38,159 nucleotides of DNA, taken from IMG/VR virus record IMGVR_UViG_3300037246_001106, positions 1-38,159 of that record; one strand, given 5' to 3'. The stretch comes from a virus. Shown here in pieces: positions 19,790-38,159 of this stretch (its first letter is position 1; each line of letters starts with the position of its first letter). The notes beneath the pieces were generated by a model. That model searched no databases, was not told the DNA's origin, and saw only the letters and a list, made by a program, of their open reading frames with translations. A program made the translations under genes and the position numbers.

Positions 19790-19790
19790 G

Positions 19791-19970: not shown

Positions 19971-20000
19971 GCGGACTACCTCCAGTTAGATTTAACCCTT

Positions 20001-20028
20001 ATTATACACACTTCCGCTTACGTGTACA
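20001..20028 (-). promoter_or_regulatory. Minus-strand sigma70-type promoter
   Basis: Read on the minus strand, TGTACA (complement of 20023-20028) is followed after 16 bases by a perfect TATAAT (complement of 20001-20006). It lies in the only clear gap of the lower minus-strand cluster, 31 bases before the ATG at 19970. It would start a transcript near 19994 for the zinc-finger, basic, HAD and second zinc-finger genes. The -35 matches consensus at four of six bases. It lacks the ATTTAACATAA element of the plus-strand promoters. Confidence 0.6.
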
Positions 20029-20032
20029 GGAA

Positions 20033-20272: not shown

Positions 20273-20277
20273 GTAGG

Positions 20278-20945: not shown

Positions 20946-21157
20946 CAGTACACTCGATGCCCGAGCTGCGACAGCTTGTCGATGATGGCTCTGACATTCG
21001 GAGACTCGTCCAGTGATGCGATCAGTGACGTGACTGCTTCGAGACGCAGCTCCAGTTCTTTCTTCTCCTGCTCCAGCTTCTCGCTGACAGTCGGCGGACG
21101 GTGGTCCATGAGTGCACGACCTGTTGCCTCAACTGCTTGACCTTCATTCTCAAACAT
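20945..21157 (-). CDS. Small coiled-coil protein
   Basis: The protein has 70 residues. TVSEKLEQEKKELELRLEAV forms a strong coiled coil, followed by TSLIASLDESPNVRAIIDKL and SQLGHRVY. A GAGGAG ribosome site lies seven to eight bases before ATG 21157. Short proteins of this layout recur next to replication genes in phages. They are probably oligomeric; function is unknown. Confidence 0.6.
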   Translation of the reverse strand: MFENEGQAVEATGRALMDHRPPTVSEKLEQEKKELELRLEAVTSLIASLDESPNVRAIIDKLSQLGHRVY

Positions 21158-21168
21158 TTTTATTCTCC

Positions 21169-21663: not shown

Positions 21664-21707
21664 AAAACCGTATTTCCGCAAAAATATCGCACTACTTTTT
21701 CACCGAT

Positions 21708-24801: not shown

Positions 24802-25798
24802 GTCTTTCTCCTCGCGCCACGTAGTCAGCCTTCCTTACGAAGTCTGCATCGAGACCGCGTATTTCGGCTTCACACAGGGTGCGGAATTCGCACGTCGTGC
24901 AGTTAAAAGGTGACATGTTGCGAGTACAGCGTCCGCCATCACGCTTGGCCTGAATCTCAGCTGTCGTTTGCAGGAAGTCATTGACCACCGCGACGATCAT
25001 GTCGGTGTTGGGTAGTGGCAGGAATACACGCTCGAAAAACGAATCCTCCTTGCCTTTGAGGAGCGACAGCATATCGTCATAGTCCTGTTCAACCAACCCA
25101 TTCTTGCGAATTGCCTGACGATAGGTGTAGGGGTCGCAGTCAAGGTTCTTACGCTTGCTCAGGGAGCCGTTCTTGAGCACTTCGGGCGAGGTGGGTGCCT
25201 TGGCCTTACCGTAGTCCCAGCAGACGCCATCGATCTTCTCCTTCGGGTTCTGCATGCCATAGGCCCAGACGTAGAGTAGGAGCTGCAGCTCGCTGAAGCG
25301 ATCCTCAGCCGTTGGAATGCCCTTCACAAATTTGTGGTCCATCACCCACCGACGCTTCTGTGGGTCCACAGCAATCTTGTCGATGAAGCCGATGAATTTG
25401 ACGTTGATCGCACTGTCACCACCCAGCTTGTTCAGGTCCACTTCGATCTTCAGCTCAGTCTGTTCGTATTTCAGCGGGTCGCGACGGTACTTGCGCAGGT
25501 AACCCTCGAAGATCTGGCCGCAGTCGCCGATGATGTCACCGTGCATATCACGCTCTTCTTCGAAGTAGGCAGCGTACTTGTCGGCGTAAACTTCCAGCAC
25601 GTCCCACGGATCTTCGCCCTCGTATTTCAGTCCATGGATCTTGGTGTTGATGTACGCGTTGAGCATCTCGTGCAGGATCTCGCCGCGCAGTAAACGTACG
25701 CCTTTAAATTTGCGCTTGAGACGTTCGAGATAGCGATAGCTCCACGCCTTCGGACAGCGGCGATAGGAGTTGACCTCGCTGAAACTAATCTGCTCCAT
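24791..25798 (-). CDS. RecB/Cas4-like PD-(D/E)XK exonuclease with Fe-S cysteines
   Basis: The protein has 335 residues from ATG 25798, chosen because GAGG lies six bases upstream; ATG 25804 is directly against that site. It starts with ISFSEVNSYRRCPKAWSYRY (C15), the usual Cas4/AddB opening. Nuclease residues are D140 in GFIDKIA, D154 and K156 in WVMDHKF, and the QxxxY motif in LQLLLYVWAY. Three further cysteines (C291, C300, C303) plus C309 (RCTRNM, NCTTCEFRTLC) would complete a 4Fe-4S site. It degrades or trims DNA ends for recombination. It is encoded between the polymerase cluster and the Sak4-like ATPase. Confidence 0.8.
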   Translation of the reverse strand: MEQISFSEVNSYRRCPKAWSYRYLERLKRKFKGVRLLRGEILHEMLNAYINTKIHGLKYEGEDPWDVLEVYADKYAAYFEEERDMHGDIIGDCGQIFEGYLRKYRRDPLKYEQTELKIEVDLNKLGGDSAINVKFIGFIDKIAVDPQKRRWVMDHKFVKGIPTAEDRFSELQLLLYVWAYGMQNPKEKIDGVCWDYGKAKAPTSPEVLKNGSLSKRKNLDCDPYTYRQAIRKNGLVEQDYDDMLSLLKGKEDSFFERVFLPLPNTDMIVAVVNDFLQTTAEIQAKRDGGRCTRNMSPFNCTTCEFRTLCEAEIRGLDADFVRKADYVARGERHGS

Positions 25799-25949
25799 TG
25801 TCATCCTCGCGTATTTTTTCCATCATAGTGTCGGTGAAGATTTTCAGCGTATCTTCGAGCTGCATTATCGCTGCGCACTGGATCTCTTCGACGGAGTGAC
25901 CTTTGTTTTGCAATAGCTTGATTTTGGTTAGCTGTTTCTCATGCCGCAT
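25785..25949 (-). CDS. 54-residue protein between polymerase and nuclease genes
   Basis: ATG 25949 has AAAGGAG six bases upstream and gives a 54-residue frame to TAG at 25785. It overlaps the polymerase stop by 11 bp and the nuclease start by 14 bp, exactly filling the gap, as other genes in this operon do. The protein is helical: KQLTKIKLLQNKGHSVEEIQ then AAIMQLEDTLKIFTD, ending acidic. No metal or membrane motif was seen. Function is unknown; it may be a polymerase accessory or regulator by position only. Confidence 0.65.
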   Translation of the reverse strand: MRHEKQLTKIKLLQNKGHSVEEIQCAAIMQLEDTLKIFTDTMMEKIREDDNGAD

Positions 25950-28452
25950 ATTTTTCTCCTTTACCCCATGGTCCTAACTCAGCTTCGCCCTCCATCGGCA
26001 CGCTGAGATTAATTTTGAATGTTTCAAGCAGCTTCGGTGAAGCAGCGATTTCCAACATCTGAGGGACACATTCATCGATGCATTCGTCGCGGACAATAGT
26101 TAACACAGCGTCATGGTGCTCACCGACCAGACGCACCTGACTGCGCTTGAACGTCTCGTGAATTTCGATGAGCACCATGGCTTTCCAATCTCCGATCAGA
26201 CCCTGCACGGGGCTATTCACTGCCTGACGCTCGTTCTCCATGCGAACGTATTTGTCTCTGGCTTGAATGCCGGGGAGTCGTCTCATACGACCCGTCAGGC
26301 AGCGAATAAAACCGTCGGTCTTTGCCAATCGTTTTGTGCGTGTGTGCCATCCTGCCAGTCGAGAGTAGAGACGGAAATATGCCCTGCGCGAGTTTTTCGC
26401 TTCAGTCATGGTTGGTGTCCAACCGTAGTCGAGCGTTGCCTGTTGGATGAACTTCTTCTCATACATGCCAAAGATGTAACCGAAATTAATTGCCTTAGCA
26501 CGCGTTCGACCTTCGTACCATTTTGGATCGATTGCGATGCACTTCTTGGGTCCTGCCTCCATCATGATCTCAAGGGACCGACTGTACGAGTGCGCTCTGT
26601 GGGTCAGCTTCTCTGCAGTCGCAAACACGCGCTCACTCCATTCGCTTTCGCTGGTGATGCCCAAGTTTTCAATCATCGTGCGCCAGTGAACGTCTATGCC
26701 GTCAACGAAGCACCGACGCATCTCTGGGTCTTTAGACAGGTGCGCTGCGATGCGCATCTCTGCCGTTGCAAGATCCAATGCACAGAATGTCCAGCCCTTG
26801 GGAGCGGTAATGAGGTTGCGAATTTGCCCGTCACGCGGGATCGGGTGCAGCGGTGAGCTGTAACGTCCGGTGACAGTGCCGTGCAATTTGTAGTCGAAAT
26901 AATATTTGTCACCGACACGATATTTCTGCCACCCTTTAATATAGGTGTTGAACATTTTCGCTGCGCCACGATAGGCGAGCAACTTCTTAACGACGGGTTT
27001 TGTTGCGATGCTGAGCAGCGCTTCTTCAGATGTGGAGTTTGCCCCTTTCTTCGTAAAAATTTTGCACTGATATCCCAGATCCTCGTATAGGAGTTTTCCG
27101 ATCTGCGCTGGACTGTTCCAATTCACTTCGTGCCCTGCCATGTCGTTCAGCTCTTCGCGCGACGTGATCATTTTGGACAGTAGGTCGAGCCCGACTTCTT
27201 TGCGGCCTTCCGCATTGATCACGAGGCCTTCCATTTCGGCGTCTTCCATTGCGCGTGCACCGGGCATGGTGATCTTCCAGAATACGCGATGCAGCTCCGG
27301 CTCAGCACGCAGCATTTTCATGAATAGGTGCGCAAGGCGGAAGGTGTACTGGGCATCCTGACCACAATATTTGTAGTTGCGCATGGGCTTCTCGGACTTG
27401 CCCTGCTTCTCGGCGAGCGGGATGTCATACTCAGGCTCATCGAGATAAGTGCGGCACAGGCTGGTCAGATCGTGCGCGAGATTTTCATCCAGTACGTGGT
27501 GCGCGAGCATGACGTCGAAGGTCAAGCGGAATGAACCACCGAACATACAACGCATCCACTTGTTGTCGAACTTCCCATTCTGGGCGTAAGCTTTTTTGTT
27601 GTCACGATGAGCAAGAAAAAACAAAAGCCGCATCAGTTTCCCAAGAGCATCACCGTGTGCAAACGGGGAGTGCGAAAATCGCTGGTAATCAGGATGCATA
27701 AATCCGGGGATGACCCAAGTCCTGTGTTCGAGGGCTATTGCAATTGCCGTGATGCGCCGCTCTTTATTGAATGGGGGTTCATCGAAGGGGAAAAGGCCAG
27801 ATGTCTCGCAGTCGTATGCGAATTCGGATGCCTCCTCAAATTCTCGTATAAAGGTACTCAAGTTGCCTTTTCTGACAACCGTCCAGTTGACTGTATCATC
27901 GCGCAAGCCGCCCTTCATGAGTCGAGCGAGCCGAGCGATGTCATCTTGAAAAGCAGGGAGCTTCGACGGATCGCGAAGTGTGTACGTCGGATCAAAGAGG
28001 GGCATCCCGATGAACTCGACTTTGGGATTCTCTATGATCTCTCCATGATACTGAGTGATCTTCGCCTTTCCCCGGAAGAGCGTCTTCGTCGCGAGGACTC
28101 CGGTTGTGACGACGTACCCCGGCTTTAATTCTGCGATTTCTTGTTCGAGGTAGGGACGGCATGCTTTGACTTCAGCTGCGGTCGGTTTTCGATCTTTCGG
28201 CGGACGGCATTTGACGAGCTGGGTGATGTAAGTTTTGTCGAGCAGATTATTTTTGTGCAGCTCGTTGCGCAGAATCTTGCCACCGTCTCCGAGGAACGGC
28301 ACGCCTCGCTTGTCTTCGATTGCGTTGGGTGATTCCCCGACTACCATAACCTTAATGTCGTCAGAGTGTTGCGGGCCAGAGCCTCTCATACAAACGGTCG
28401 CAGCGGTGGCGTGGAGGCTGCAGTCGGTACAATTCGGGTTCAGGCTCGACAT
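25939..28452 (-). CDS. Uracil-DNA-glycosylase-like domain fused to DNA polymerase I
   Basis: The protein has 837 residues. Residues 1-185 form a family 4 UDG-like domain: cysteines C8, C11, C82, C98 suited to a 4Fe-4S cluster, GESPNAIEDKRGVPFLGDGG (residues 39-58) and ITQLVKCRPPKDRKPT. Residues ~205-380 form a DnaQ-like 3'-5' exonuclease with intact acids (DCET D214/E216, NGKFD D296, YCGQD D366). Residues ~390-837 form a family A polymerase: motif A LDLATAEMR (D560), motif B RAKAINFGYIFG (R649/K653), motif C EHHDAVL (H780-D781). It is the replicative polymerase. Phage SPO1 polymerase also has an N-terminal UDG-like domain. About 40 extra residues lie before motif B. The ribosome site at ATG 28452 is weak. 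Confidence 0.85.
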   Translation of the reverse strand: MSSLNPNCTDCSLHATAATVCMRGSGPQHSDDIKVMVVGESPNAIEDKRGVPFLGDGGKILRNELHKNNLLDKTYITQLVKCRPPKDRKPTAAEVKACRPYLEQEIAELKPGYVVTTGVLATKTLFRGKAKITQYHGEIIENPKVEFIGMPLFDPTYTLRDPSKLPAFQDDIARLARLMKGGLRDDTVNWTVVRKGNLSTFIREFEEASEFAYDCETSGLFPFDEPPFNKERRITAIAIALEHRTWVIPGFMHPDYQRFSHSPFAHGDALGKLMRLLFFLAHRDNKKAYAQNGKFDNKWMRCMFGGSFRLTFDVMLAHHVLDENLAHDLTSLCRTYLDEPEYDIPLAEKQGKSEKPMRNYKYCGQDAQYTFRLAHLFMKMLRAEPELHRVFWKITMPGARAMEDAEMEGLVINAEGRKEVGLDLLSKMITSREELNDMAGHEVNWNSPAQIGKLLYEDLGYQCKIFTKKGANSTSEEALLSIATKPVVKKLLAYRGAAKMFNTYIKGWQKYRVGDKYYFDYKLHGTVTGRYSSPLHPIPRDGQIRNLITAPKGWTFCALDLATAEMRIAAHLSKDPEMRRCFVDGIDVHWRTMIENLGITSESEWSERVFATAEKLTHRAHSYSRSLEIMMEAGPKKCIAIDPKWYEGRTRAKAINFGYIFGMYEKKFIQQATLDYGWTPTMTEAKNSRRAYFRLYSRLAGWHTRTKRLAKTDGFIRCLTGRMRRLPGIQARDKYVRMENERQAVNSPVQGLIGDWKAMVLIEIHETFKRSQVRLVGEHHDAVLTIVRDECIDECVPQMLEIAASPKLLETFKINLSVPMEGEAELGPWGKGEKYAA

Positions 28453-28541
28453 GGAGCCCGCGCGCTCAAGACCATTTCCAGTGCTCCGTAATCTCTGTTA
28501 GATTGGTCGGCCTAACAAAATTTAAACACTCATTTGAATTT

Positions 28542-28579
28542 GGAGGGGGGGTCTTCCCAACAGAGACGATCCCCCCTCC
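28542..28579. other. Stable GC hairpin beside an AT-rich stretch, candidate origin or control region
   Basis: GGAGGGGGGGTC (28542-28553) pairs with GATCCCCCCTCC (28568-28579) over 12 bp with one G-T wobble, leaving a 14-base loop. Directly to the left is an AT-rich run (about 28515-28540, AACAAAATTTAAACAC). The element sits in the 158-bp region between the divergent polymerase (28452, minus) and primase-polymerase (28611, plus) genes. No U-run follows it on either strand, so it is not a classical terminator. Replication origin, leader hairpin or regulator site are all possible. No convincing promoter was found here on either strand. Confidence 0.5.
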
Positions 28580-28610
28580 GGTTCTCACACCTACAACAAG
28601 AAGAGGCGAG

Positions 28611-30722
28611 ATGGCACAGGATAAAGCAGGATGGAACGCGACGCAAACTGCGTTGTACTGGTTAGCTATGGATGTCTACACAGTTCCGCTGCAGAGGAGG
28701 TCAAAAAGGCCTAAAGCCAAGAACTGGCCGCATCTCAGGCTAGTTGAAGAAGATTTAAAAAACGGCGCATTTAAGCCCGGTGACAACATCGGAGCACTCT
28801 GGGGCGAGCCATCTGCGCACGTTACCGACGTCGATCTGGACATGGACGAGGCTGTTTGGGTAGCTGAACAACTGCTTCCCGCGACGTACATTTACGGTCG
28901 CACCGACAAAGAATATTCACACTATATTTATCGCGTCGCGGGTGCGAAGACTAAAAAATGGCAGGTGGCCGAACTGGGCACCATCGTCGAAATTCGTTCT
29001 ACAGGATCCCAATCAGTCATCCCACCGTCGCGTCATCCTGAAGGTGGCAAGTATTTCACCAACAGTGACGGAGATGCCGAGTTTGTCTCCCTGACCAAGC
29101 TTGACCTCGAACGACTCTGCGATGAAATTGCCGTCGCTGCCGTCTTCCTTCATTACTACCCTGAGGCTGGATCTCGACACGACTTTGTCCATGCCTGCAC
29201 AGGTGCACTGTGTCACCAGCGGTGGCCTGCTAAAAAAGTGAAGCGCGTGATGGGTGCGATACTCACCATCATCCAAGACGAAGAAGACGAGATCGATGAC
29301 CGCATGAATGCGGTAGTCAACACCATCGAAAAACACGAGGCTGGTGATCGCACAAAAGGATTCACCACACTGACAGACTGGATGACGATGCCAGTCATCT
29401 CTGCACTGCGCAGGTGGACGCAGAGCGGAATGCACGAGGGACAGATCGTCACGCGTCCTGTCATAGATGCACCGAAAGGTGCGCCCAAGAAGATCACGTT
29501 CGATGATCAGTTGCTTGAAGTGCCCGGACTGGTCGGTGAGTGCGCAAAATGGGCACGCAGTGCACAGTATCTTGATCAGCCGATTTTCGCTCTCGCTTCT
29601 GGCATCATGTGCACCGCGTTGGCGAGCTGCAATCACTACGTCGTGCAACACTGGGACACGCCACTGCAGCCTTACCTCTTGGTGACAGCAGGAACAGGGG
29701 GCGGGAAGAATTCTGCACTCTCTGCAGTTACAGAATTCACGCATAGGGTGGGGCTCGATGATGTCGCCTTTCGAGGCTTCCAATCTTATTATGCGATGCT
29801 CGATATTTTAGGTGAGGAAGGAATGGCATGTTGGCTATGGGACGAAGCTGCGCGCTACATGGCAAACGTAAAAAATAGCAGCGGACAGGACTTTGCAATC
29901 CTCACGCACGTCATCTCTTTATATGGTGCAGCGAACCAATTTGTTCCCGGCGTTCCCGGTCGCAGACAATCAATCCCCGCTCTCGATCATCCGTTCCTTA
30001 CTCTTCTCGCTACCGCACAACCCGAAGCACTCATGGAAGCCATCACGGGTACTGCGCGCGAGACTGGCTTCGTCAATCGATTTGTTTTAATGGACACTGG
30101 CGACTACTTCCCTCCGCGCAACACACGTCGCACAAAAGTGTTCCCGTCAGCTCTCAAGAAACATGCGCGCGAACTTATTGCGCACGAGCCGCACGATGAC
30201 CACACTGAGATCGCGTTCGAAGACACCGATACGTTTTCACGTTTCGATGAGTACGAAGAATCATCGCGGCGTCGATCTCGTAAAGATGAAACGTGGGCGA
30301 GAGCAAATCAAAACGCACTCATCATGGCAGGCGTCGCAGCTGTCGGTGTCGATGCACATCGTCCTGTCATCACACCTGACATCGCGCGGTGGGCAATCAA
30401 ATTAGTATCGTGGAGCAACGAGTGCTGGGCAAGTAAAATGCAATTCATTTCGAGCGGCACCAGTTACGTCGAGAAGAATGCAAGGCGAGTTGAAGCCGTC
30501 ATCAGTCAGCCGCAAAAATATATGGAACAAAAACCAAATACATCAGCGCAGAAGCTGTGCATGAAGAATGGCATGATGCCCGCCGCAGCTCTCACGCGTA
30601 ATACAACTGACATTCAACGTAACAATCGCGAACACATCATCAACGATCTTCTCGAAGCCGAAGTCATCGGCACCACCGAAGCTCACGGAAACGTCTGCTA
30701 CTTCAGAAAATCATTCGACTAG
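28611..30722 (+). CDS. Bifunctional primase-polymerase / helicase-like protein
   Basis: The protein has 703 residues from ATG 28611, preceded by AAGAGGCGAG; the frame extends upstream only through non-coding sequence. The N-terminal ~180 residues form a prim-pol domain: VTDVDLDMDEA (D73, D75, D77), EYSHYIYR (H104), and IVEIRSTGSQSVIPPS then HPEGGKY. Residues ~350-560 form a DUF3987-like ATPase/helicase: VTAGTGGGKNSAL in the Walker A place (residues 358-370, GKN rather than GKS/GKT), a DEA box (WLWDEAARYM), and a C-terminal region to 703. It would make primers and unwind DNA at the fork with the polymerase encoded divergently. The Walker A change is discussed separately. Confidence 0.8.
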   Translation: MAQDKAGWNATQTALYWLAMDVYTVPLQRRSKRPKAKNWPHLRLVEEDLKNGAFKPGDNIGALWGEPSAHVTDVDLDMDEAVWVAEQLLPATYIYGRTDKEYSHYIYRVAGAKTKKWQVAELGTIVEIRSTGSQSVIPPSRHPEGGKYFTNSDGDAEFVSLTKLDLERLCDEIAVAAVFLHYYPEAGSRHDFVHACTGALCHQRWPAKKVKRVMGAILTIIQDEEDEIDDRMNAVVNTIEKHEAGDRTKGFTTLTDWMTMPVISALRRWTQSGMHEGQIVTRPVIDAPKGAPKKITFDDQLLEVPGLVGECAKWARSAQYLDQPIFALASGIMCTALASCNHYVVQHWDTPLQPYLLVTAGTGGGKNSALSAVTEFTHRVGLDDVAFRGFQSYYAMLDILGEEGMACWLWDEAARYMANVKNSSGQDFAILTHVISLYGAANQFVPGVPGRRQSIPALDHPFLTLLATAQPEALMEAITGTARETGFVNRFVLMDTGDYFPPRNTRRTKVFPSALKKHARELIAHEPHDDHTEIAFEDTDTFSRFDEYEESSRRRSRKDETWARANQNALIMAGVAAVGVDAHRPVITPDIARWAIKLVSWSNECWASKMQFISSGTSYVEKNARRVEAVISQPQKYMEQKPNTSAQKLCMKNGMMPAAALTRNTTDIQRNNREHIINDLLEAEVIGTTEAHGNVCYFRKSFD

Positions 30723-30735
30723 CCAAGTATCTGTT

Positions 30736-30784
30736 ATTTAACATAATTCAAGGACTTTACACGGGAGCCCTCCTGTGATATAGT
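30736..30784 (+). promoter_or_regulatory. Early promoter A with upstream ATTTAACATAA element
   Basis: ATTTAACATAA (30736-30746) is followed after nine bases by a -35 TTTACA (30756-30761), a 17-base spacer and a -10 TATAGT (30779-30784). The spacer contains GGGAG-CC-CTCC, an imperfect palindrome. It directly follows the prim-pol stop and precedes the thirteen-gene small cluster that starts at 30825. The same architecture recurs at 34078 and 36495. Confidence 0.75.
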
Positions 30785-30796
30785 ACGTCTCGTACT
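30782..30796. repeat. Perfect palindrome AGTACG-TCT-CGTACT over the transcription start
   Basis: A 6-bp inverted repeat with a 3-base centre overlaps the end of the -10 and the predicted start site of promoter A. This is where a repressor dimer would block transcription. It is absent from the two sister promoters. An operator role is inference. Confidence 0.5.
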
Positions 30797-30824
30797 GTTT
30801 CACAAATACCACAGGAGCACGACC

Positions 30825-31127
30825 ATGAGTAAAGTAGCAAAGAGAGACCTGCCCGGACTAGCCGATGAGCTTGGCTTCCTCCGCGCACAGATAGCGGACC
30901 TGAAAGATCGCGAGACAGATATTCGCGAGACCTTCATCGAAGCTGGCATTACTGCGATGGAAGGTGAGACCTTTCGCGCAGTAGTTGTAGAGTCCCTGCG
31001 CACGACCATCAACTGGAAGGCAGTAGCTGCGAAGCTGAAGCCCAGCCGTCAGCTGGTCACGTCGCACACCACGGAGAAGGAAGTCATCGCTATCCGTGTT
31101 AACGCCCGCCGAGGAGTAGCAGCGTGA
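30825..31127 (+). CDS. Small coiled-coil early protein
   Basis: This 100-residue protein is the first gene after promoter A, with CACAGGAGC upstream of ATG. The N-terminal ~45 residues are a probable coiled coil (LADELGFLRAQIADLKDRET then DIRETFIEAG). The rest is beta-type (MEGETFRAVVVESLRTTINW, VNARRGVAA). I do not recognise an enzyme motif. Proteins of similar layout (helix, then short beta region with KLxPSRQ) occur in early phage clusters. The stop overlaps the next GTG. Confidence 0.6.
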   Translation: MSKVAKRDLPGLADELGFLRAQIADLKDRETDIRETFIEAGITAMEGETFRAVVVESLRTTINWKAVAAKLKPSRQLVTSHTTEKEVIAIRVNARRGVAA

Positions 31128-31387
31128 GAATCGCAATCGCTGCCACGGGCAAATCCAAGAGTGTTGCCCAGTACCTGCCGAACAACTTTAAGGTACTGGG
31201 TCGCACGCTTGACAACACCGGCACGATCATCGTCGGTGTTGATGACCACGGCTGGTCACTCGACCAGTACGTGATTCCCCGACTTGGCTCCGCCATGATT
31301 CACTGCGAAGAGGTGTTCGAGATTAACGGTCTCAACATCAAGCAGCTGGAGCTGAATCTCAAACGTTACGAGGAGCAACTCTCATGA
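31124..31387 (+). CDS. Small hypothetical early protein
   Basis: The protein has 87 residues from GTG 31124 (GTGA overlap), with GAGGAG about seven bases upstream. It starts MRIAIAATGKSKSVAQYLP, then TIIVGVDDHGWSLDQYVI, an alternating beta/helix pattern that ends in a helix (NIKQLELNLKRYEEQL). There is no membrane segment or Cys cluster. Function is not recognised. It is tightly coupled to both neighbours. Confidence 0.6.
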   Translation: MRIAIAATGKSKSVAQYLPNNFKVLGRTLDNTGTIIVGVDDHGWSLDQYVIPRLGSAMIHCEEVFEINGLNIKQLELNLKRYEEQLS

Positions 31388-31653
31388 GCATCATGACCGC
31401 AGCGAACACGCTTGCAGATTTCCACGCGGACCTGAGTCACTTCACCGTCAACAAGTGGAACACCACACTGCTCGTGCGCAACGTAATGGAGAACGTCGCG
31501 CGCAAGCTCGAACTCGACATCCATCGCAACGACATAGCCGACACCCTGTACTGGATCTGCTGCGACCTCGAAGACTTCCCTAAGGATGAGGGCTTCGGTA
31601 GCAGCGATCACTACACCTACATTCAAAGAGCAAAAGAGGAGCTAGGAGCATGA
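31384..31653 (+). CDS. Small helical hypothetical early protein
   Basis: The 89-residue protein overlaps the previous stop (ATGA). It is all-helical by appearance: AANTLADFHADLSHFTVNKW, then RNVMENVARKLELDIHRNDI, ADTLYWICCDLEDFPKDEG. It is acidic with two adjacent cysteines. Such compact acidic proteins often bind host proteins, but this is only a general expectation for the region. It has no recognised family. Confidence 0.6.
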   Translation: MSIMTAANTLADFHADLSHFTVNKWNTTLLVRNVMENVARKLELDIHRNDIADTLYWICCDLEDFPKDEGFGSSDHYTYIQRAKEELGA

Positions 31654-31946
31654 GAATAGAAAGCGCACAAGGGATGGCAGTACAGCATCCGGATACATTC
31701 GAGGTCGCTGACATCGACCTCCTACGCGAAGTCGTCAAGCCCGGAGTGTACGCGAAGATCTGCATACTCGACGGTGGAGGCGAACGCATCTGGACCAAGG
31801 TCATCAAGGTTGACGGTGACAAGGTCAGAGCATCACTCGCCAATGATCCGTTCGGCCTCGAAGGCATGTCGCACGGTGACCGGGTCGAGTACCAGATGCA
31901 CAACGTCTACAACGTGACGTCGGTCGATGGGGAGGAGCTAGCGTAA
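31650..31946 (+). CDS. DUF2314-like small protein
   Basis: The protein has 98 residues. The C-terminal two-thirds read GGERIWTKVIKVDGDKVRAS then LANDPFGLEGMSHGDRVEYQ. This strongly resembles the DUF2314 core (W-V-x-V...VDGD...LxNDP...GD-x-V), a small beta-barrel of unknown function found in bacteria and phages. ATG overlaps the previous stop (ATGA), and its own stop overlaps the next ATG (TAATG). The molecular role is not known. Confidence 0.6.
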   Translation: MRIESAQGMAVQHPDTFEVADIDLLREVVKPGVYAKICILDGGGERIWTKVIKVDGDKVRASLANDPFGLEGMSHGDRVEYQMHNVYNVTSVDGEELA

Positions 31947-32122
31947 TGGGTACTAGCGACAACCCGTATAAGAGAGGTGACGCAGTCCGCATCCAACGTG
32001 GTGCGGGCTGGCTCACCGGGACAGTGGTCAAGACGATACTGGCGCGCGTGCACATCCAGATCGATGACAGGGTATTCGTCGAAGACTGGCACAGTTGCAA
32101 GCGGTTGACACGGGTACGCTGA
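31946..32122 (+). CDS. 58-residue SH3/KOW-like small protein
   Basis: ATG 31946 overlaps the previous stop (TAATG) with GGAGGAGC upstream. The frame has 58 codons and ends at 32122. It reads YKRGDAVRIQRGAGWLTGTV then VKTILARVHIQIDDRVFVED, a short all-beta pattern like an SH3, Tudor or KOW barrel (GDxVRI...GxV...V). Its charge is mildly basic. Function is unknown; small barrels of this kind often bind nucleic acid or proteins. Confidence 0.6.
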   Translation: MGTSDNPYKRGDAVRIQRGAGWLTGTVVKTILARVHIQIDDRVFVEDWHSCKRLTRVR

Positions 32123-32313
32123 TGTGTAACCATGCAGACCTGAGGGGTGGAGTAGCTTTCGCTTTTGGTTTTTTGACGATTACAGAAAGCCCCACCGTTG
32201 ATCCCGCGAGAGACGCGGAGCTGATGACCCTTACAGGCGAGGCACCGCTGATCGATGACCGGGGTAGGAATCTGGGTAGCGTTGATCCCACCCCTCTTTT
32301 TTACTGGAGCTGA
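32122..32313 (+). CDS. Small hypothetical protein
   Basis: This is a 63-residue frame from ATG 32122, overlapping the previous stop (TGATG). No good ribosome site is visible, so it would depend on coupling. The sequence has a hydrophobic stretch (GGVAFAFGFLTITESPTV) and ends LIDDRGRNLGSVDPTPLF then YWS. It fills the only gap in this cluster, which supports it, but the protein itself shows nothing recognisable. Confidence 0.45.
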   Translation: MCNHADLRGGVAFAFGFLTITESPTVDPARDAELMTLTGEAPLIDDRGRNLGSVDPTPLFYWS

Positions 32314-32316
32314 ACA

Positions 32317-32553
32317 ATGAATTACGCAGTAACTTGTTTGACAGATGAAGGTCCCGATCAGGAACGCGTGAGAGTCACGCGCAAGACCTTCACCCGCGAA
32401 GAGGCGGAACACTACATCAAGGGTGTTGCCGCGAGCCGCGAACCTAAGATCGAATCGATCTGCATATTTTGCGAAGTGGAGTACAGGACTGCAGTTGATC
32501 CTCAACTCGGCTTCGACGATTGGCCGCGATGCGTTAATTGCGGTGCATGTTAA
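32317..32553 (+). CDS. Small protein with C-terminal Cys pairs
   Basis: The protein has 78 residues. TGGAGC lies upstream of ATG 32317. The N-terminal half is beta/charged (YAVTCLTDEGPDQERVRVTR), then a helix (EEAEHYIKGVAASREP). The end has CIFCEVEYRTA and RCVNCGAC, two or three CxxC pairs that would hold a zinc ion. It is a probable zinc-ribbon protein of unknown target. Confidence 0.6.
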   Translation: MNYAVTCLTDEGPDQERVRVTRKTFTREEAEHYIKGVAASREPKIESICIFCEVEYRTAVDPQLGFDDWPRCVNCGAC

Positions 32554-32573
32554 AACGCAAAGGAGCAAATGAC

Positions 32574-32822
32574 ATGAATAGGAAAGAAGCAGAAGCACTG
32601 CACGCAGCGATGGAAGATGAAGGCTGCGAAGACCTGAACCTCCGCGAAAATTATTCTGGTCGCGGCATGTACGGCAAAGACACGTGGGCTATCAGTGGCG
32701 ACTTCAGCTGGTGCGTTGTCGCAGTTGCATGGGCACAGGTCTGTGTCGGTGATGACGAGTACCAACCTGACGATCTCAAGTTCACATGGGATGCCATGGG
32801 CTTGGGCACGGTGATCTACTAA
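32574..32822 (+). CDS. Small acidic hypothetical protein
   Basis: The protein has 82 residues from ATG 32574, set by AAAGGAG upstream; an earlier in-frame ATG at 32538 lies inside the previous gene. It opens with a helix (RKEAEALHAAMEDEGCEDLN) and is acidic and Trp-containing (DTWAISGDFSWCVVAVAWAQ, DLKFTWDAMG). It overlaps the next gene by TAATG. Unknown function. Confidence 0.6.
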   Translation: MNRKEAEALHAAMEDEGCEDLNLRENYSGRGMYGKDTWAISGDFSWCVVAVAWAQVCVGDDEYQPDDLKFTWDAMGLGTVIY

Positions 32823-33079
32823 TGAAACTTTCTAAACACGACACTGAGATGTTTCTGAACGGTCGCGTCGTTGGCTACCAATACCAGATGCGAATCGTCA
32901 TCACCTATGGCGAGACCGAGAACGTCGGCGAGATAGTCGTCTTCGGTGCATACGGAGAACCTGTCGATAAATTCCGACGGGAGTTCCATCACCAGTACGG
33001 TCGTGAGTGGATCAAATCATCGATGCGCGACACGGCAAAAGTCCGGGACGAAGTTCCCGAGTTGAAGGAGCAAAAGTAA
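32822..33079 (+). CDS. Small hypothetical protein
   Basis: The protein has 85 residues from ATG 32822 (TAATG overlap, weak ribosome site, so probably coupled). It has a beta-rich N-terminus (GRVVGYQYQMRIVITYGETE, then GEIVVFGAYGEPVDKF) and a charged helical C-terminus (REWIKSSMRDTAKVRDEV). No motif is recognised. The stop overlaps the next ATG. Confidence 0.6.
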   Translation: MKLSKHDTEMFLNGRVVGYQYQMRIVITYGETENVGEIVVFGAYGEPVDKFRREFHHQYGREWIKSSMRDTAKVRDEVPELKEQK

Positions 33080-33234
33080 TGGGTACCAAAGAGAAAGAGT
33101 ACAACAACGAACTGACAATTCGTACCGAGACCGAAGACCAGACTGACCGCATCCTCAAGGTGCTTGAAGAAGCCGAAGAGGAAGGTGAGCTGGACTTTGG
33201 ATTCAACTGCATCCGCAACACGTATCCGAGGTGA
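33079..33234 (+). CDS. 51-residue acidic hypothetical protein
   Basis: This short acidic protein has 51 residues from ATG 33079, with AAGGAG about eight bases upstream and a TAATG overlap. It reads KEKEYNNELTIRTETEDQTD then RILKVLEEAEEEGELDFGFN, a beta strand followed by an acidic helix. Function is unknown. Small acidic proteins are common among phage host-takeover genes, but there is no direct evidence here. Confidence 0.55.
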   Translation: MGTKEKEYNNELTIRTETEDQTDRILKVLEEAEEEGELDFGFNCIRNTYPR

Positions 33235-33239
33235 GCATC

Positions 33240-33590
33240 ATGGACGACAACAGGCGCAAGCATGATGACCTGCGCAAGATGGTGGACGATACCATCCAGC
33301 GCATGACTGATGGCAGAGGATCACCTTGCTCGACCAATGTCGCTAACGCCGTCAAAGACACTGCACGCAAAGCGTACTACCTCGGATGCCGTGATGGCAT
33401 GGAGCTGGCACGCGAAGCGGACAAGCAACCACGAAAGATGTGGATACTCGGCAGAGAGTACGACCTGTCCAAGGGCGACGACGTCAAGGCAATCGGCGAA
33501 GTGATCGGCGATTGTCAGGACAGGCAGGCACCGAACGATCTTGCCCTAATCGCGAGCACTCTACTGAGTGCCGCACTGGAGGTGAAGTAA
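33240..33590 (+). CDS. Small helical hypothetical protein
   Basis: The protein has 116 residues from ATG 33240 (GAGGTG six bases upstream); a GTG at 33231 overlapping the previous stop would add three residues. It is helical and charged (DDLRKMVDDTIQRMTDGRGS, VANAVKDTARKAYYLGCRDG), with a mixed second half (KMWILGREYDLSKGDDVKAI, LALIASTLLSAALEVK). No recognised motif. The stop overlaps the next gene (TAATG). Confidence 0.6.
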   Translation: MDDNRRKHDDLRKMVDDTIQRMTDGRGSPCSTNVANAVKDTARKAYYLGCRDGMELAREADKQPRKMWILGREYDLSKGDDVKAIGEVIGDCQDRQAPNDLALIASTLLSAALEVK

Positions 33591-33751
33591 TGTACTTGAC
33601 TGATATTGAAGTGGCTCTGGTCGTCACTCGCGTACTTAGCGGTGACAGCTGGGCCGAGGTTGGAAGAGACATGACCGTCTCTTCGCGCAGGCTACGACGC
33701 TGCGTCGCAGACAACCTGAAGCTGCACGTCCCGAAGAGGAAGAAGAGGTGA
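33590..33751 (+). CDS. 53-residue possible helix-turn-helix protein
   Basis: ATG 33590 has GGAGG upstream and overlaps the previous stop (TAATG). The sequence LTDIEVALVVTRVLSGDSWA then EVGRDMTVSSRRLRRCVADN has the helix-turn-helix rhythm of a short DNA-binding protein (VGRDMTVSSRRLRRCV as recognition part), with a basic end (HVPKRKKR). It could regulate promoters A-C, but that is inference only. Confidence 0.5.
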   Translation: MYLTDIEVALVVTRVLSGDSWAEVGRDMTVSSRRLRRCVADNLKLHVPKRKKR

Positions 33752-33754
33752 CCC

Positions 33755-34015
33755 ATGGATCCATTTGTTGGGTGGTTTACATCGTGGCTTCTGGTACTGG
33801 TGATCAACGGTGAGATGGTTGAGCGCGAGGAGTATGATTCACGCATGGCATGCCTGTCGGTCGGTAACCACATGGTTAAAGACACCCTTAATCCAGCTAC
33901 GCACTATTGGGAAATCGAAGGCACGCTCGATGGTTTCTTCTGTGAAAAGAAAGAGCCTACGAAACCTGAGAAGGTTACTGCGGTCTGCGTAGCACCGACA
34001 CGCCACTGTAGCTAA
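33755..34015 (+). CDS. Small membrane or secreted hypothetical protein
   Basis: The protein has 86 residues. GAAGAGGTG lies before ATG 33755. The first ~20 residues are hydrophobic (FVGWFTSWLLVLVINGEM), serving as an anchor or uncleaved signal. The rest is soluble with four cysteines (MACLSVG, GFFCEKKE, AVCVAPTRHC) that could form disulfides outside the membrane. It is the last gene before the terminator at 34029. A role in superinfection exclusion or envelope change is possible but unproven. Confidence 0.55.
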   Translation: MDPFVGWFTSWLLVLVINGEMVEREEYDSRMACLSVGNHMVKDTLNPATHYWEIEGTLDGFFCEKKEPTKPEKVTAVCVAPTRHCS

Positions 34016-34028
34016 CAGAAAGCTCCGG

Positions 34029-34063
34029 CCCCGGTAACGCGTAATGGCGACCGGGGTTTTTTT
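34029..34063 (+). terminator. Rho-independent terminator ending the small-gene operon
   Basis: CCCCGGT (34029-34035) pairs with ACCGGGG (34050-34056) around a 14-base loop, followed by seven T residues. It lies just after the stop at 34015 and immediately before promoter B, separating the two units. Confidence 0.85.
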
Positions 34064-34077
34064 GTGGCTGAGGGTCT

Positions 34078-34126
34078 ATTTAACATAATCCCCTGATTTG
34101 CAATGGGAGCGCTCCTGTGGTATACT
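34078..34126 (+). promoter_or_regulatory. Early promoter B with ATTTAACATAA element and palindromic spacer
   Basis: ATTTAACATAA (34078-34088) is followed after nine bases by -35 TTGCAA (34098-34103), a 17-base spacer and -10 TATACT (34121-34126) with an extended TG. The spacer holds the perfect palindrome GGAGCGCTCC (34106-34115), a likely operator. It lies right after the terminator and drives the UvrD-like helicase unit starting at 34164. Confidence 0.8.
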
Positions 34127-34163
34127 GATCCCTCAACGTCAAAAAATCTACACGGAGCACAAC

Positions 34164-35648
34164 ATGATTACACTTTCCAAATATCAGCAAGCGGTCATCG
34201 ACTGGGTGACCGCACACATTGAGACCGCAGGCGCGCTGATCGTTGAAGCGGTCGCAGGCAGCGGCAAGACCTTCACCATCGTGAAGGCTGCGCAGCTGAT
34301 CCCGAAGGCGCACAAGGCAGTCTTCCTTGCCTTCAACAAATCCATCGCAGTCGAGCTGGGCACCAAGCTTCCGGGTCACGTCGAGAGCAAGACACTCAAC
34401 GCACTGGGCTGGGCAGTCTGCCGCTACCGTCTCGGCAAGACCATCACCGTTGATCGCAACAAGACATTCGACCTGATCGACAAGCTACTGCCAGAGGAGT
34501 CGCGCGAGGTACGCAGCGAGCTGCTCAACATCATCGGCAAGGCGAAGGCGCACGGACTGGTGCCCAAGGGCATGCGCATACCGAGCGGCACGTACGAGGC
34601 AACTGACGAGCGCTGGGATACGCTGATGGATAAGTACGACGTGGACCCCAACGGCTGCGGATCCGCGACGTTCATCAACTGGGCTAACATCCTGCTCAAG
34701 GCTGGGCTCGAAGAGCAAAACGTTTTCGACTTCGATGACCAGCTGTACATGCCGGTCGCACTTGACTTGCCAGCATGGGGATACGACTGGGTCATCATTG
34801 ATGAGGCGCAGGATGTGTCGCACGTGCAACGCACGCTGCTGCGCAAATTCCTCAAACGTAACGGACGGCTGATCGCAGTCGGCGACAGTCACCAAGCGAT
34901 CTACGGATTCAGAGGCGCGGACTCGGACTCGCTCAAGAACATCGGTCGAGTGTTCAAGGCCGAGACGCTACCGCTCTCGATCAGCTACCGGTGCCCACGC
35001 AAGGTCGTCGAGATAGCGCAGGGATTCGTGCCGCACATCGAGGCAAGCGACAGCGCTGAAGATGGCGAGGTGCTCAAGCCTACCAGCTGGGACGTCGAGT
35101 CATTCAGTGATACGGACCTCGTGGTCTGCCGCAACACTGCACCCCTGATCGAGCTTGCATACAAGTGCATCAGCGAAGGTCACAAGGTGCACGTGATGGG
35201 TCGCGAGATCGGCAAGGGTCTGGTCAACGTCATCAAGAAGGCGGCTGGCAAACGGGCGAAGACAATCGAAGAGCTGCGACCCAAGCTGGATACATGGCAG
35301 CAGCGCATGGTCAAGAAGGCCGAGAAAAACGAAGCGAAGATCGCTGCGATACAGGACAAGGTGGACTGCATCAATGTACTGGCAGCAGGCCTCGACACCA
35401 TCGCTGAACTGGTCAAGGCAATCGAAGACATCTTCAGCGACAGCGCGCAAGGCACCACGCTTGCAACGGTGCACAAAGCGAAAGGCCTTGAGGCACCGCG
35501 AGTATTTATTTTGAACCCGGACCTGATGCCATCACGATGGGCAACACAGGAATGGCAGCAAGAACAAGAGCGCAACCTGCAGTACGTCGCAGTCACCCGC
35601 GCACTTGAAACCCTCGTCTACCTCCCGCTAGAAATAGTGGGAGTGTAG
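34164..35648 (+). CDS. UvrD/Rep-like SF1A helicase
   Basis: The protein has 494 residues from ATG 34164 with CACGGAGCAC upstream. Motif I is VEAVAGSGKTFT (residues 27-38). Motif II is VIIDEAQDVS. Motif III is AVGDSHQAIYGFRGAD. Motif V-like is TLATVHKAKGLEAPRVFIL and motif VI is LQYVAVTRALETLVYLP. This is a complete 3'-5' DNA helicase core, with a coiled, Lys/Glu-rich insert between residues ~375 and 430. It has no nuclease domain. It may serve DNA replication or repair, or displace host proteins. It is the first gene under promoter B and stands apart from the main replication operon. Confidence 0.85.
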   Translation: MITLSKYQQAVIDWVTAHIETAGALIVEAVAGSGKTFTIVKAAQLIPKAHKAVFLAFNKSIAVELGTKLPGHVESKTLNALGWAVCRYRLGKTITVDRNKTFDLIDKLLPEESREVRSELLNIIGKAKAHGLVPKGMRIPSGTYEATDERWDTLMDKYDVDPNGCGSATFINWANILLKAGLEEQNVFDFDDQLYMPVALDLPAWGYDWVIIDEAQDVSHVQRTLLRKFLKRNGRLIAVGDSHQAIYGFRGADSDSLKNIGRVFKAETLPLSISYRCPRKVVEIAQGFVPHIEASDSAEDGEVLKPTSWDVESFSDTDLVVCRNTAPLIELAYKCISEGHKVHVMGREIGKGLVNVIKKAAGKRAKTIEELRPKLDTWQQRMVKKAEKNEAKIAAIQDKVDCINVLAAGLDTIAELVKAIEDIFSDSAQGTTLATVHKAKGLEAPRVFILNPDLMPSRWATQEWQQEQERNLQYVAVTRALETLVYLPLEIVGV

Positions 35649-35679
35649 GCATCAATGCGAAAGCAACGGAGCAAACGCA

Positions 35680-35856
35680 ATGAGTAATGTACCTAAGACA
35701 ATCAACCTCGCACCGAGTTGGACCGGGGTCGCGCGCATGCACATCATGCTCATCGACCACGGCACCGATGAAGGTAAGCAGGATGCGCGCGATGGCATCC
35801 TTGAGATGGGCAAGCTACTTGACCAGCTGGTCGCCGAACGGGAGCAACAGTCATGA
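35680..35856 (+). CDS. 58-residue hypothetical protein
   Basis: ATG 35680 is preceded by CGGAGC. The frame has 58 codons and overlaps the next ATG (ATGA). It reads TINLAPSWTGVARMHIMLID then GTDEGKQDARDGILEMGKLL. The LAPSW-G opening followed by a Gly-Lys and an acidic helix is a pattern I associate with small phage proteins of unknown function. It is helical and probably soluble. Confidence 0.6.
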   Translation: MSNVPKTINLAPSWTGVARMHIMLIDHGTDEGKQDARDGILEMGKLLDQLVAEREQQS

Positions 35857-36173
35857 ACTTAATCGAACAGACTGCGAAGCAAATTAAGAAACGCAAGCAC
35901 CTGCAATCTCAGGAGAAGAACATCACGCAAGACTTCTGCGATGCGAACGGCAGGGAGTGGGATGCAGAACTTAACGTCGAGTGGGAAAGCGGCGACGAGT
36001 GCACCAGCTACTGTCACCTGAGCACGACGGTCGGACACAAGGTCTACTGCAGCAGCCTCACACTGGTCGAGGCATTCGGTTACGTCGAGGGTGACGATGA
36101 CGGTGACGTCATCAAGGTACCGACCGCGCTCTTCGATGAGGTTCACGAGTGGGCACTTGAGGAGGGATACTGA
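35853..36173 (+). CDS. Small acidic hypothetical protein
   Basis: The protein has 106 residues. It starts with a basic helix (IEQTAKQIKKRKHLQSQEKN), then a beta/acidic region with several cysteines (DECTSYCHLSTTVGHKVYCS) and an acidic end (FGYVEGDDDGDVIKVPTALF). The clustered Cys/His suggests a metal site or redox pair, without a known family. It overlaps the preceding gene (ATGA) and lies one base before the next ATG. Confidence 0.55.
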   Translation: MNLIEQTAKQIKKRKHLQSQEKNITQDFCDANGREWDAELNVEWESGDECTSYCHLSTTVGHKVYCSSLTLVEAFGYVEGDDDGDVIKVPTALFDEVHEWALEEGY

Positions 36174-36174
36174 G

Positions 36175-36396
36175 ATGGGACTTCAAGCAATCAGTTGGCA
36201 AGCGTACTGGCTCGATGACGCGTGGGTGAAACCCGGCAAGAGTCACGCCTACGTGCGCGGAGTGTGCGGCACTGGCGAGCGGGCACTGTGCGGGTACGAG
36301 CCCCGGTGGAACTGCAACACGATGTACGGTCACGCACCTGAGTGCAAGCGTTGTCGCGCAGTGGCAGACAAGGAGGAGCTGCCCACCTGCATCTAG
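36175..36396 (+). CDS. Small Cys-rich zinc-binding-type protein
   Basis: The protein has 73 residues from ATG 36175 with GAGGAGGG upstream. It is Trp- and Cys-rich: LQAISWQAYWLDDAW, VCGTGERALCGYEPRWNC and GHAPECKRCRAVADKEELP. The CxxC and the other four cysteines fit a zinc ribbon or knuckle. It is the last gene before a terminator. Function is unknown. Confidence 0.6.
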   Translation: MGLQAISWQAYWLDDAWVKPGKSHAYVRGVCGTGERALCGYEPRWNCNTMYGHAPECKRCRAVADKEELPTCI

Positions 36397-36419
36397 CCTC
36401 ACGCACGTGCAACACACAC

Positions 36420-36450
36420 GGGACGCGCTCGCGAGGGCGCGTTCCTTTTT
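36420..36450 (+). terminator. Rho-independent terminator after the UvrD-unit genes
   Basis: GGGACGCGC (36420-36428) pairs with GCGCGTTCC (36437-36445) around a short loop, with one G-T pair, followed by TTTTT. It lies 24 bases after the last gene and before promoter C. Confidence 0.8.
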
Positions 36451-36494
36451 ATTGTCAGGCGCGCGTACACATGAGCGCTACCCCCCAAATCCCC

Positions 36495-36521
36495 ATTTAA
36501 CATAATACCGACTTAACATAA
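36495..36521. repeat. Direct repeat of the TTAACATAAT element
   Basis: ATTTAACATAA at 36495-36505 and ACTTAACATAA at 36511-36521 are direct copies with a 16-base offset, upstream of promoter C. Single copies precede promoters A and B. They are the most conserved part of the promoter set. Confidence 0.8.
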
Positions 36522-36571
36522 TGCAACCGTAGGTATGCCGATTTGACACGGCAGCGCACATGTGGTATACT
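36495..36571 (+). promoter_or_regulatory. Early promoter C, consensus sigma70 with two upstream elements
   Basis: After the two TTAACATAAT copies comes a perfect -35 TTGACA (36543-36548), a 17-base spacer and -10 TATACT (36566-36571) with an extended TG. The spacer palindrome of promoter B is degenerate here (CGGCAGCGCACATGTGG). It is the strongest of the three by consensus and lies 36 bases before the ArdC-like ATG at 36608. Confidence 0.85.
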
Positions 36572-36607
36572 GATCCTGTAACGTCAAAAAACCAACTGGA
36601 GAAAAAA

Positions 36608-37558
36608 ATGAAAGCTTCAATATATCAACGCATCACAAACAAGCTCATCGCGATTCTTGAATCCGGAGCTAACCCTTGGCAGCGTGACTGGACACTCGGC
36701 AACGGGGGCGGATACGGTATGCCTCACAATGCCATCAGCGGTCGCGCGTATCGCGGGATCAATCTCATGCTGCTCACGGCTGAGCAAATCGTCAACGGCT
36801 ACCAGTCAACCGGCTGGATCACCAAAGGCAAATTGTACGAGCTTGCCAAGGCCGACGGTGTAACGCTCAACTGGAAAGGCCAGTCGCCGACTGAGGTCGT
36901 ACTCTGGAAACGCAGTGAGAAAAAAGACTCGGCCACAGGCGAGCGCTCATCATACATGTGGGCAAAAACCTTCTGGGTCTGGAACCTCGATCAGATTGAC
37001 GGCATTGAAGATTGCGCCGACAAGCTGAAAGGATACAAGGCGCTTGAGATCCCTGAAGAGATCGCGGACACGCATGCGCTGGTCGCTGCAGTCAGCAAGG
37101 GTCTGGACATCAAGGTCAATCACGGTGGTGACCGCGCGTTCTATAATCCGGGCAGCGACTTCATACAGATGCCGCCTAAGGATGCATTCAAATCAGAAGC
37201 CGGATACCTCGGCACGTTCATGCACGAGAGCACGCACGCGACCGGGCACAAGTCACGGTGTGATCGCGGAGTCAAGGCAATGCAAGGGCGCTTCGGCACT
37301 GAGGCGTACGCGTTCGAGGAGCTGGTCGCCGAATTGGGATCTTGTTTCTTACAGGGTACGCTGGGCATTGAGATGCATACCGAGAACCACGCCAGCTACT
37401 TGGCGAACTGGCTCAAGGTTTTAAAGGATGACGAGAAAGCCATCTTCACTGCAGCGAGCAAGGCGCAGAAAGCTTGTGACTACATCCTCGACAAAACCGG
37501 CATCAAAGAGATGCCCGTTTACGATACTGAAGAGACTGACAAAAAGAGGGCAGCGTAA
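36608..37558 (+). CDS. ArdC-like antirestriction protein
   Basis: The protein has 316 residues from ATG 36608, preceded by CTGGAGAAAAAA. The N-terminal ~130 residues form the ArdC/TraC-type ssDNA-binding domain (ILESGANPWQRDWTLGNGG, then SGRAYRGINLMLL). The C-terminal ~150 residues form a zincin-like metallopeptidase: FMHESTHATGH (H206-E207...H210) with a downstream Glu near residue 237 (FEELVAELG). ArdC proteins protect incoming DNA from restriction, possibly by binding it or by proteolysis. Expression from the strongest promoter, likely immediately after entry, suits that role. The stop overlaps the next ATG (TAATG). Confidence 0.8.
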   Translation: MKASIYQRITNKLIAILESGANPWQRDWTLGNGGGYGMPHNAISGRAYRGINLMLLTAEQIVNGYQSTGWITKGKLYELAKADGVTLNWKGQSPTEVVLWKRSEKKDSATGERSSYMWAKTFWVWNLDQIDGIEDCADKLKGYKALEIPEEIADTHALVAAVSKGLDIKVNHGGDRAFYNPGSDFIQMPPKDAFKSEAGYLGTFMHESTHATGHKSRCDRGVKAMQGRFGTEAYAFEELVAELGSCFLQGTLGIEMHTENHASYLANWLKVLKDDEKAIFTAASKAQKACDYILDKTGIKEMPVYDTEETDKKRAA

Positions 37559-38159
37559 TGAATACTTGGTTTCACTTCACGCGCAAATCGCAGAACGCGA
37601 AAACGGGGCCGATTGCCACGACCACTACTGAAGAGCGCACGTGTCCGCCATCGTGCCCGCTCTTCACGGAGTGCTACGGCAAGGGCGGACCTCAGGCAAT
37701 GCACTGGCGCAAGGTAAACGAGCACGCGCGTGGCGGCGACCTCGCATACCTGACCGCTAACATCCGCGCGCTGGATCCGGGTGAGTTGTGGCGACACGAC
37801 GTGACCGGTGACTTGCCCGGAGTAGGTGAGCGGATCAACGGTCGCGAGTTACGCGCGATCACTGCAGCCAACGCGGGCAAGCGCGGATTCACATACACGC
37901 ATAAGCGGCCAAGCGTAGGCGACAACGCGCGACACATTAAGGATGCCAACGTCGCCGGGTTCACTATCAATCTCAGCGCTAACACGCTCGCGGAAGCTGA
38001 CGCCTACGCGGACCTTGAGATCGGCCCGGTGGTCACGGTGTTGCCAGCTGATCAAACCGAAAACACGGTGACGCCTGCGGGCCGACGCGTGGTGGTTTGC
38101 CCAGCGACGCAACGCGATGACGTGACCTGCGCAACCTGCAAAATGTGCGCGGTGCAAGA
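37558..38159 (+). CDS. Cys-rich phage protein (DUF7227-like), cut by the window end
   Basis: ATG 37558 overlaps the ArdC-like stop (TAATG), and the frame is open to the last base (about 200 residues visible), so the 3' end lies outside. Features include TFHFTRKSQ-like start (WFHFTRKSQNAKTGPIATTT), CPPSCPLFTECYGKGGPQ, HWRKVNEHARGGDLAYLTAN, and near the end VVVCPATQRDDVTCATCKMC. The two Cys clusters suggest metal or Fe-S binding. I associate this layout with the DUF7227 family, whose function is unknown to me. Its coupling to ArdC-like DNA protection is notable. Confidence 0.65.
   Translation, partial: MNTWFHFTRKSQNAKTGPIATTTTEERTCPPSCPLFTECYGKGGPQAMHWRKVNEHARGGDLAYLTANIRALDPGELWRHDVTGDLPGVGERINGRELRAITAANAGKRGFTYTHKRPSVGDNARHIKDANVAGFTINLSANTLAEADAYADLEIGPVVTVLPADQTENTVTPAGRRVVVCPATQRDDVTCATCKMCAVQ

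Follow-up and report, generated by a model that had tools for sequence, protein, structure and literature searches.

The phage DNA deposited as IMG/VR record IMGVR_UViG_3300037246_001106 (38,159 nt; analysed over its whole length, positions 1 to 38,159, and called the window below) ends in a unit of two genes, ardC and a gene of the DUF7227 family, placed behind a promoter that is repeated in the window and in related phages. In our preferred reading, to which we assign a probability of about 0.55, the two genes are accessory early cargo of this promoter, and the DUF7227 protein is an independent, noncanonical radical-SAM-like enzyme that forms one family with GP88 and phrog_2554. ArdC itself is not a conserved partner of DUF7227.

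Layout of the unit

Near the end of the record, a hairpin is followed by two TTAACATAAT boxes, promoter C, ardC and the DUF7227 gene (Table 1). The start of ArdC was set at the ATG after the GGAG site; an alternative start at 36560 lies inside promoter C. The DUF7227 gene runs off the contig end, which leaves its product short of about 25 C-terminal residues. The TAATG overlap of the two genes, pointed out in the first-pass annotation, is indeed found at 37556-37560, with AGAGGG before the second start. The genes are likely co-transcribed, and their common promoter and one-base overlap make translational coupling likely too. A search of NCBIfam gave no match.

A 73-aa protein encoded at 36175-36396 has no family match and is strongly conserved in one relative (L137, 10538-10795, E 4e-37).

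Table 1 Features of the two-gene unit and of the sister promoter copies in the window.
Feature	Position	Strand	Description or basis
Promoter copy A, sister of promoter C	30756..30784	+	repeat and consensus match
Promoter copy B, sister of promoter C, ahead of UvrD-like helicase	34098..34126	+	repeat and consensus match
Terminator-like hairpin	36420..36445	+	11 pairs, T-rich tail; separates the unit from upstream genes
TTAACATAAT box, first at promoter C	36497..36506	+	identical boxes at 30738 and 34080
TTAACATAAT box, second at promoter C	36513..36522	+	sequence match
Promoter C (TTGACA-17-TATACT, TG extension)	36543..36571	+	11/12 consensus match
Operator-like palindrome position in the spacer of promoter C	36547..36564	+	18 bp, 5/9 pairs, degenerate
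GGAG ribosome-binding site of ArdC	36598..36601	+	sequence
ArdC gene	36608..37558	+	316 aa; ArdC-N ssDNA-binding domain and zincin domain
AGAGGG ribosome-binding site of DUF7227 gene, within ardC	37545..37550	+	sequence
TAATG stop-start overlap of ardC and DUF7227 gene	37556..37560	+	one base; sequence
DUF7227 gene	37558..38157	+	3' end cut by contig end

A repeated promoter ahead of the unit

Promoter C consists of TTGACA, a 17-nt spacer and then TGGTATACT, and is a near-consensus extended sigma-70 promoter. Sites as good occur on average 0.12 times per shuffled whole window (100 shuffles). When the 211 bp 5' of ArdC are shuffled instead, a + strand site this good appears in 5 of 3000 cases; requiring the TG extension as well lowers this to 1 of 3000. 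Its earlier description as nearly perfect is confirmed, and its consensus match is far above the shuffled expectation. The accompanying claim that it is the strongest promoter holds as a ranking by consensus score, in which it comes first among the 17 sites found in 18200-38159, and reaches no further than that score.

Three copies of the element are present in the window and span 30735-30784, 34077-34126 and 36495-36571. A repeat search places promoter C and copy B in a common 57-nt repeat (81% identical), and copies B and A in one of 48 nt (77% identical). The repeated element is made of TTAACATAAT, followed by TTGACA-like and TATAAT-like boxes separated by a spacer near CACGGGAGCGCTCCTGTG; the exact TTAACATAAT copies listed in Table 1 precede copies A and B. 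The same element is found in seven of the eight closest relatives of the phage (L135-L138, L140, L167 and L172), which were identified through the helicase (72-93% identity); in the eighth, L139, there is no copy within 10 mismatches. As an IMG/VR probe, the promoter pattern gave no confirmed match.

Together with the three of the window, the relatives bring the number of + strand copies to 26, two - strand matches being left out. Six or more of the 9 palindrome pairs are formed in 22 of these 26 copies, compared with 1.2% of 4500 random 18-mers, a count that is partly circular since similarity to a consensus rich in palindrome pairs had served to select the copies. The three window copies were found by the repeat search, independently of that consensus. 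Promoter C is the least symmetrical of them, with 5 pairs against 7 and 6. From these sequence patterns, we infer a set of early promoters with a common repressor; promoter C is one of the copies of this repeated and probably co-regulated sigma-70 promoter.

Elsewhere in the window, TTGGTTTTTTGACG at 32165-32178 matches the ArdC leader (36582-36595) exactly when reverse-complemented, which may reflect antisense pairing or chance.

DUF7227 and its relatives

The second gene of the unit had been annotated as a DUF7227-like Cys-rich protein, an assignment confirmed by its match to PF23872 (E 2e-74; 250.4 bits, against a cut-off of 27). It keeps all conserved cysteines of the family, namely C29, C33 and C39, then C181, C191, C194 and C197. 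The copy, cut by the contig end, differs from the family in having CYG for CYA and TGD for AGD.

DUF7227 occurs at no fewer than 585 confirmed loci in IMG/VR (at least that many) and in 185 of 50,697 named phage records, including PAK_P1 and P-SSP7. We found no mention of it in the literature searched; PF17338, PF23872 and the phrog names had no match there either, and the sole match, to 'gene product 88', was a work whose title concerns long non-coding RNAs. A profile search of the PDB with eight DUF7227 sequences returned chance matches alone (best E 1.3).

In Tunturiibacter phage Tunturi_2 (L008, 4965-5699), the label 'DNA methyltransferase' looks wrong for a protein that matches DUF7227 and GP88. 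We rejected this product name as an indication of DUF7227 activity, because the Tunturi_2 protein itself is the DUF7227/GP88 match. In PAK_P2 (KC862298, 58398-58984), the DUF7227 match falls in two pieces across two annotated genes, so that this copy may be broken. Dap2 of PaoP5 was considered as a DUF7227 protein and taken as a different gene, as it is orf004 (PMC13083879) and the DUF7227 gene of this phage lies at 82908-83495.

Judged by their sequences, the DUF7227, GP88 (PF17338) and phrog_2554 models describe related proteins, linked by bridging sequences. Ten of 49 DUF7227 proteins match GP88 (best E 3.4e-8), and the window protein matches phrog_2554 (E 1.8e-33). Proteins of two sister phages, L138 and L139, match phrog_2554 with E 5.6e-78 and 4.9e-76 and DUF7227 with E 7.1e-4 and 2e-5, both of these DUF7227 matches being below its cut-off. 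The Tunturi_2 protein matches both GP88, over the cut-off (E 2e-10), and the window protein (E 2e-7). Compared directly by hhalign, DUF7227 and GP88 align weakly (E 0.02) and colinearly over 196 columns.

GP88 and phrog_2554 share with DUF7227 an NxKT start, a Cys loop after strand 1 and a Ser after strand 4, as well as their neighbourhood in sister phages. After strand 2, they have R-x-N-x3-D where DUF7227 has R-H-N-x2-G-D; after strand 3, YTK corresponds to YTH. GP88 lacks the four C-terminal cysteines of DUF7227.

GP88 also aligns with DUF5131 (PF07505), which we take to be phage Gp37/Gp68, and the E-value of 0.0021 (hhalign) hints at a wider family. DUF5131 has SDLF and LTKR at the places where GP88 has TSDI and YTKI; such proteins, with both motifs as in the GP88 layout, are encoded at loci L116-L124. 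Compared directly, DUF7227 and DUF5131 gave no significant match (hhalign E 0.15-0.18).

Family members in sister phages

Related phages usually keep some DUF7227 relative in the corresponding part of the genome. Of the nine phage-group records, seven encode a single member of DUF7227, GP88 or phrog_2554, and none encodes two. The window has DUF7227; a GP88 gene is present in L135, L140 and L167 and, cut by the contig end, in L136; a phrog_2554 protein is found in L138 and L139. In the remaining two records the contig breaks off at this position or close by: L137 stops 2 kb beyond the helicase gene, and L172 within it.

A promoter copy stands upstream of the family member in six of the seven carrying records. 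In L167, the start codon of GP88 is about 40 bases behind it. In the window, L135, L136, L138 and L140, the copy lies at most about 1 kb upstream of the member, with 0 to 2 genes between. No copy was found upstream of the phrog_2554 protein of L139. Across phages more broadly, a separate GP88 gene occurs in none of 35 DUF7227 records (the sole match, in Tunturi_2, is the DUF7227 gene itself), a count that says little on mutual exclusion because GP88 and DUF7227 are both rare.

Predicted fold and cysteines of DUF7227

As the window copy is cut, we modelled the full-length DUF7227 protein of L014. The AlphaFold2 model, built from a 49-sequence alignment, has a pLDDT of 97.1 and a pTM of 0.93; that of GP88 (41 sequences) has a pLDDT of 89.9. 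Foldseek gave no PDB match at E ≤ 0.001 for either model. Its 1000 best PDB chains were realigned with VIA and the resulting rows classed by structure titles (7bi7 was presumed to be NifB).

For DUF7227, rows 1-11 are all radical-SAM enzymes with Z from 6.6 to 5.4, and for GP88 rows 1-26 are, with Z from 6.8 to 4.9; all Z for both models are below 8, a range in which, by the warning of the tool, a match may mean merely a common arrangement. The top rows of DUF7227 include PFL-AE, with 165 aligned positions at Z 6.6 and rmsd 4.3, along with viperin, spore photoproduct lyase and SkfB. Its best unrelated match, CutC in row 12, follows closely at Z 5.3; the first unrelated row of GP88 has Z 4.5.

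Three N-terminal cysteines are present in 48 of 49 DUF7227 and 41 of 41 GP88 sequences, no other cysteine being invariant in GP88; the four C-terminal ones are found in all 49 DUF7227 rows. By our own reading of the strands, the three cysteines directly follow strand 1 in both models. Strand 2 is followed by R-H-N-x2-G-D in DUF7227 and by R-L-N-G-T-S-D in GP88, Y-T-H or Y-T-K closes strand 3, and strand 4 terminates in a Ser. Radical-SAM enzymes have their cluster after strand 1, the GGE motif after strand 2 and the ribose motif after strand 4.

As predicted, the partial TIM barrel and the three cysteines in the loop after strand 1 would resemble those of the radical-SAM superfamily (PFL-AE, viperin, spore photoproduct lyase, QueE). 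DUF7227 and GP88 differ from it in cysteine spacing and have no significant sequence match to it: the arrangement is mostly CX3CX5-6C in DUF7227 and CX6-7CX3C in GP88 (with both families taken together, mostly CX3CX5-13C or CX6-7CX3C), in place of the canonical CX3CX2C, and radical-SAM models of Pfam match none of the 49 DUF7227 members at E ≤ 1. Because of this spacing, we do not file DUF7227 as a member of the superfamily. On the predicted fold and cysteine layout, we read it as a radical-SAM-like iron-sulphur enzyme, presumably expressed early, in which a cluster and SAM cleavage would be expected.

Alternatively, DUF7227 may be a zinc-binding, non-enzymatic early protein that binds DNA, RNA or a host protein, its seven cysteines forming two zinc sites on a barrel scaffold. 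A Cys-rich protein of about 225 aa from an early region would suit this role; its CxxCxxC and CX3C spacings could serve zinc binding, and the failure to match radical-SAM models at the sequence level points the same way. However, the model alternates helices and strands, radical-SAM enzymes top both VIA lists, and the invariant polar residues R79, D85, H115, N138 and S140 (L014 numbering), placed after strands 2, 3 and 4, have the look of an active site. We consider a purely zinc-binding protein rather unlikely.

QueE and thymine-hypermodifying radical-SAM enzymes make DNA or nucleotide modifications, and DUF7227 might likewise, independently of ArdC, make a modification that protects phage DNA. 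The radical-SAM-like fold agrees with this, its VIA neighbours including spore photoproduct lyase, QueE, queuine lyase and viperin, but such neighbours say nothing on the substrate. Moreover, no gene for a pathway partner recurs by DUF7227, whose nearest neighbours are small unnamed ORFs, and we consider such a modification enzyme unlikely.

ArdC and its occurrence beside DUF7227

The first gene had been called an ArdC-like zincin, and this identity is borne out in an intact copy. Residues 4-125 match Pfam ArdcN (PF08401, E 9.7e-22) and residues 164-285 the MPTase-PolyVal zincin (PF18818, E 8.2e-46), both over the cut-off. The HExxH zinc motif HESTH (206-210) and the downstream Glu motif EELVAE (237-242) align with PDB 6i89, which the protein matches with E 1.4e-55 over residues 2-295. 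Both domains and both motifs are shared with ArdC of R388/pSa (PDB 6i89, 6sna); the latter resides on a conjugative plasmid, whereas the window copy belongs to a phage early operon.

With R388 ArdC, DNA withstands type I restriction in the recipient, and the protease activity of ArdC is not required for this (PMC7213743). PMC5512222 describes ArdC-N as rare among phage polyvalent proteins and common among conjugative ones. By analogy, an early phage copy of ArdC fits the anti-restriction role of R388 ArdC. As an IMG/VR probe, ArdC gave no confirmed relative. Some ArdC homologues are named 'DNA primase', as in cyanophage SS120-1 (L258, 3950-4933) and in Brevundimonas phages.

Among 108 other DUF7227 loci (L005-L112), ArdC is near DUF7227 in one, L018; 69 of the 101 loci L012-L112 have flanks of 1.2 kb or more to either side. 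In L018, both genes lie within 2 kb, ArdC is downstream of DUF7227, an order opposite to that of the window, and a gene of about 84 codons separates them. ArdcN was detected in one of 35 whole records with DUF7227 (those searched from the 108 loci), in two of nine bacterial genomes with DUF7227 (those searched from 21 genome loci) and, over whole records, in none of the eight close relatives. On these counts we rejected ArdC and DUF7227 as a conserved pair: they stand apart in most of the genomes counted, contrary to the coupling put forward in the first-pass annotation. The same counts leave without support its suggestion that, being co-expressed with ArdC, the Cys-rich protein also protects DNA.

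Named phages include 59 records with ArdC and 185 with DUF7227. No common record was seen among the matches listed, many of the 185 (nearly all Pseudomonas phages) not being listed singly; with about 0.2 common records expected by chance, this non-overlap is no evidence either way. In marine cyanobacterial autographiviruses, ArdC and DUF7227 are both found near early genes, but in different phages. No recurring operon partner of DUF7227 was seen in the gene rows around the 108 loci; large gene clusters, which hold many reverse-frame shadow ORFs, were left out.

That ArdC and DUF7227 make up one counter-defence module, in which DUF7227 modifies or shields DNA alongside ArdC, would suit their shared promoter, likely translational coupling and proximity in L018, but is quite improbable against the scarcity of ArdC at all the loci, records and genomes counted above, the reversed and interrupted order in L018 and the separation of the two genes among marine autographiviruses.

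Proposed role of the unit

Under our preferred reading of two independent early genes, ardC and the DUF7227 gene would be transcribed right after DNA entry. ArdC would bind the incoming DNA and hinder type I restriction like its R388 counterpart, and the DUF7227 protein would work independently of it. In the latter, a [4Fe-4S] cluster that binds and cleaves SAM would be held by the three N-terminal cysteines that follow strand 1 of the partial TIM barrel. The conserved GD behind strand 2 and the Ser behind strand 4 may be stand-ins for the GGE and ribose motifs, and the C-terminal CP/CxxCxxC cysteines could hold a second cluster or zinc. Our guess for the substrate is a nucleotide, a nucleic acid or a host component altered early in infection. 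DUF7227, GP88 and phrog_2554 would then be alternative members of one family kept in the early region of this phage group.

More broadly, and tentatively, as we place it somewhat below even odds, the three could together make up a single phage family of noncanonical radical-SAM enzymes, widespread and represented in each sister phage by one interchangeable member behind operator-bearing early promoters, for a host-takeover or counter-defence chemistry not yet described. If DUF7227 is truly an early SAM-radical iron-sulphur enzyme, unstudied genes of lytic Pseudomonas phages and cyanophages would become open to standard anaerobic biochemistry.
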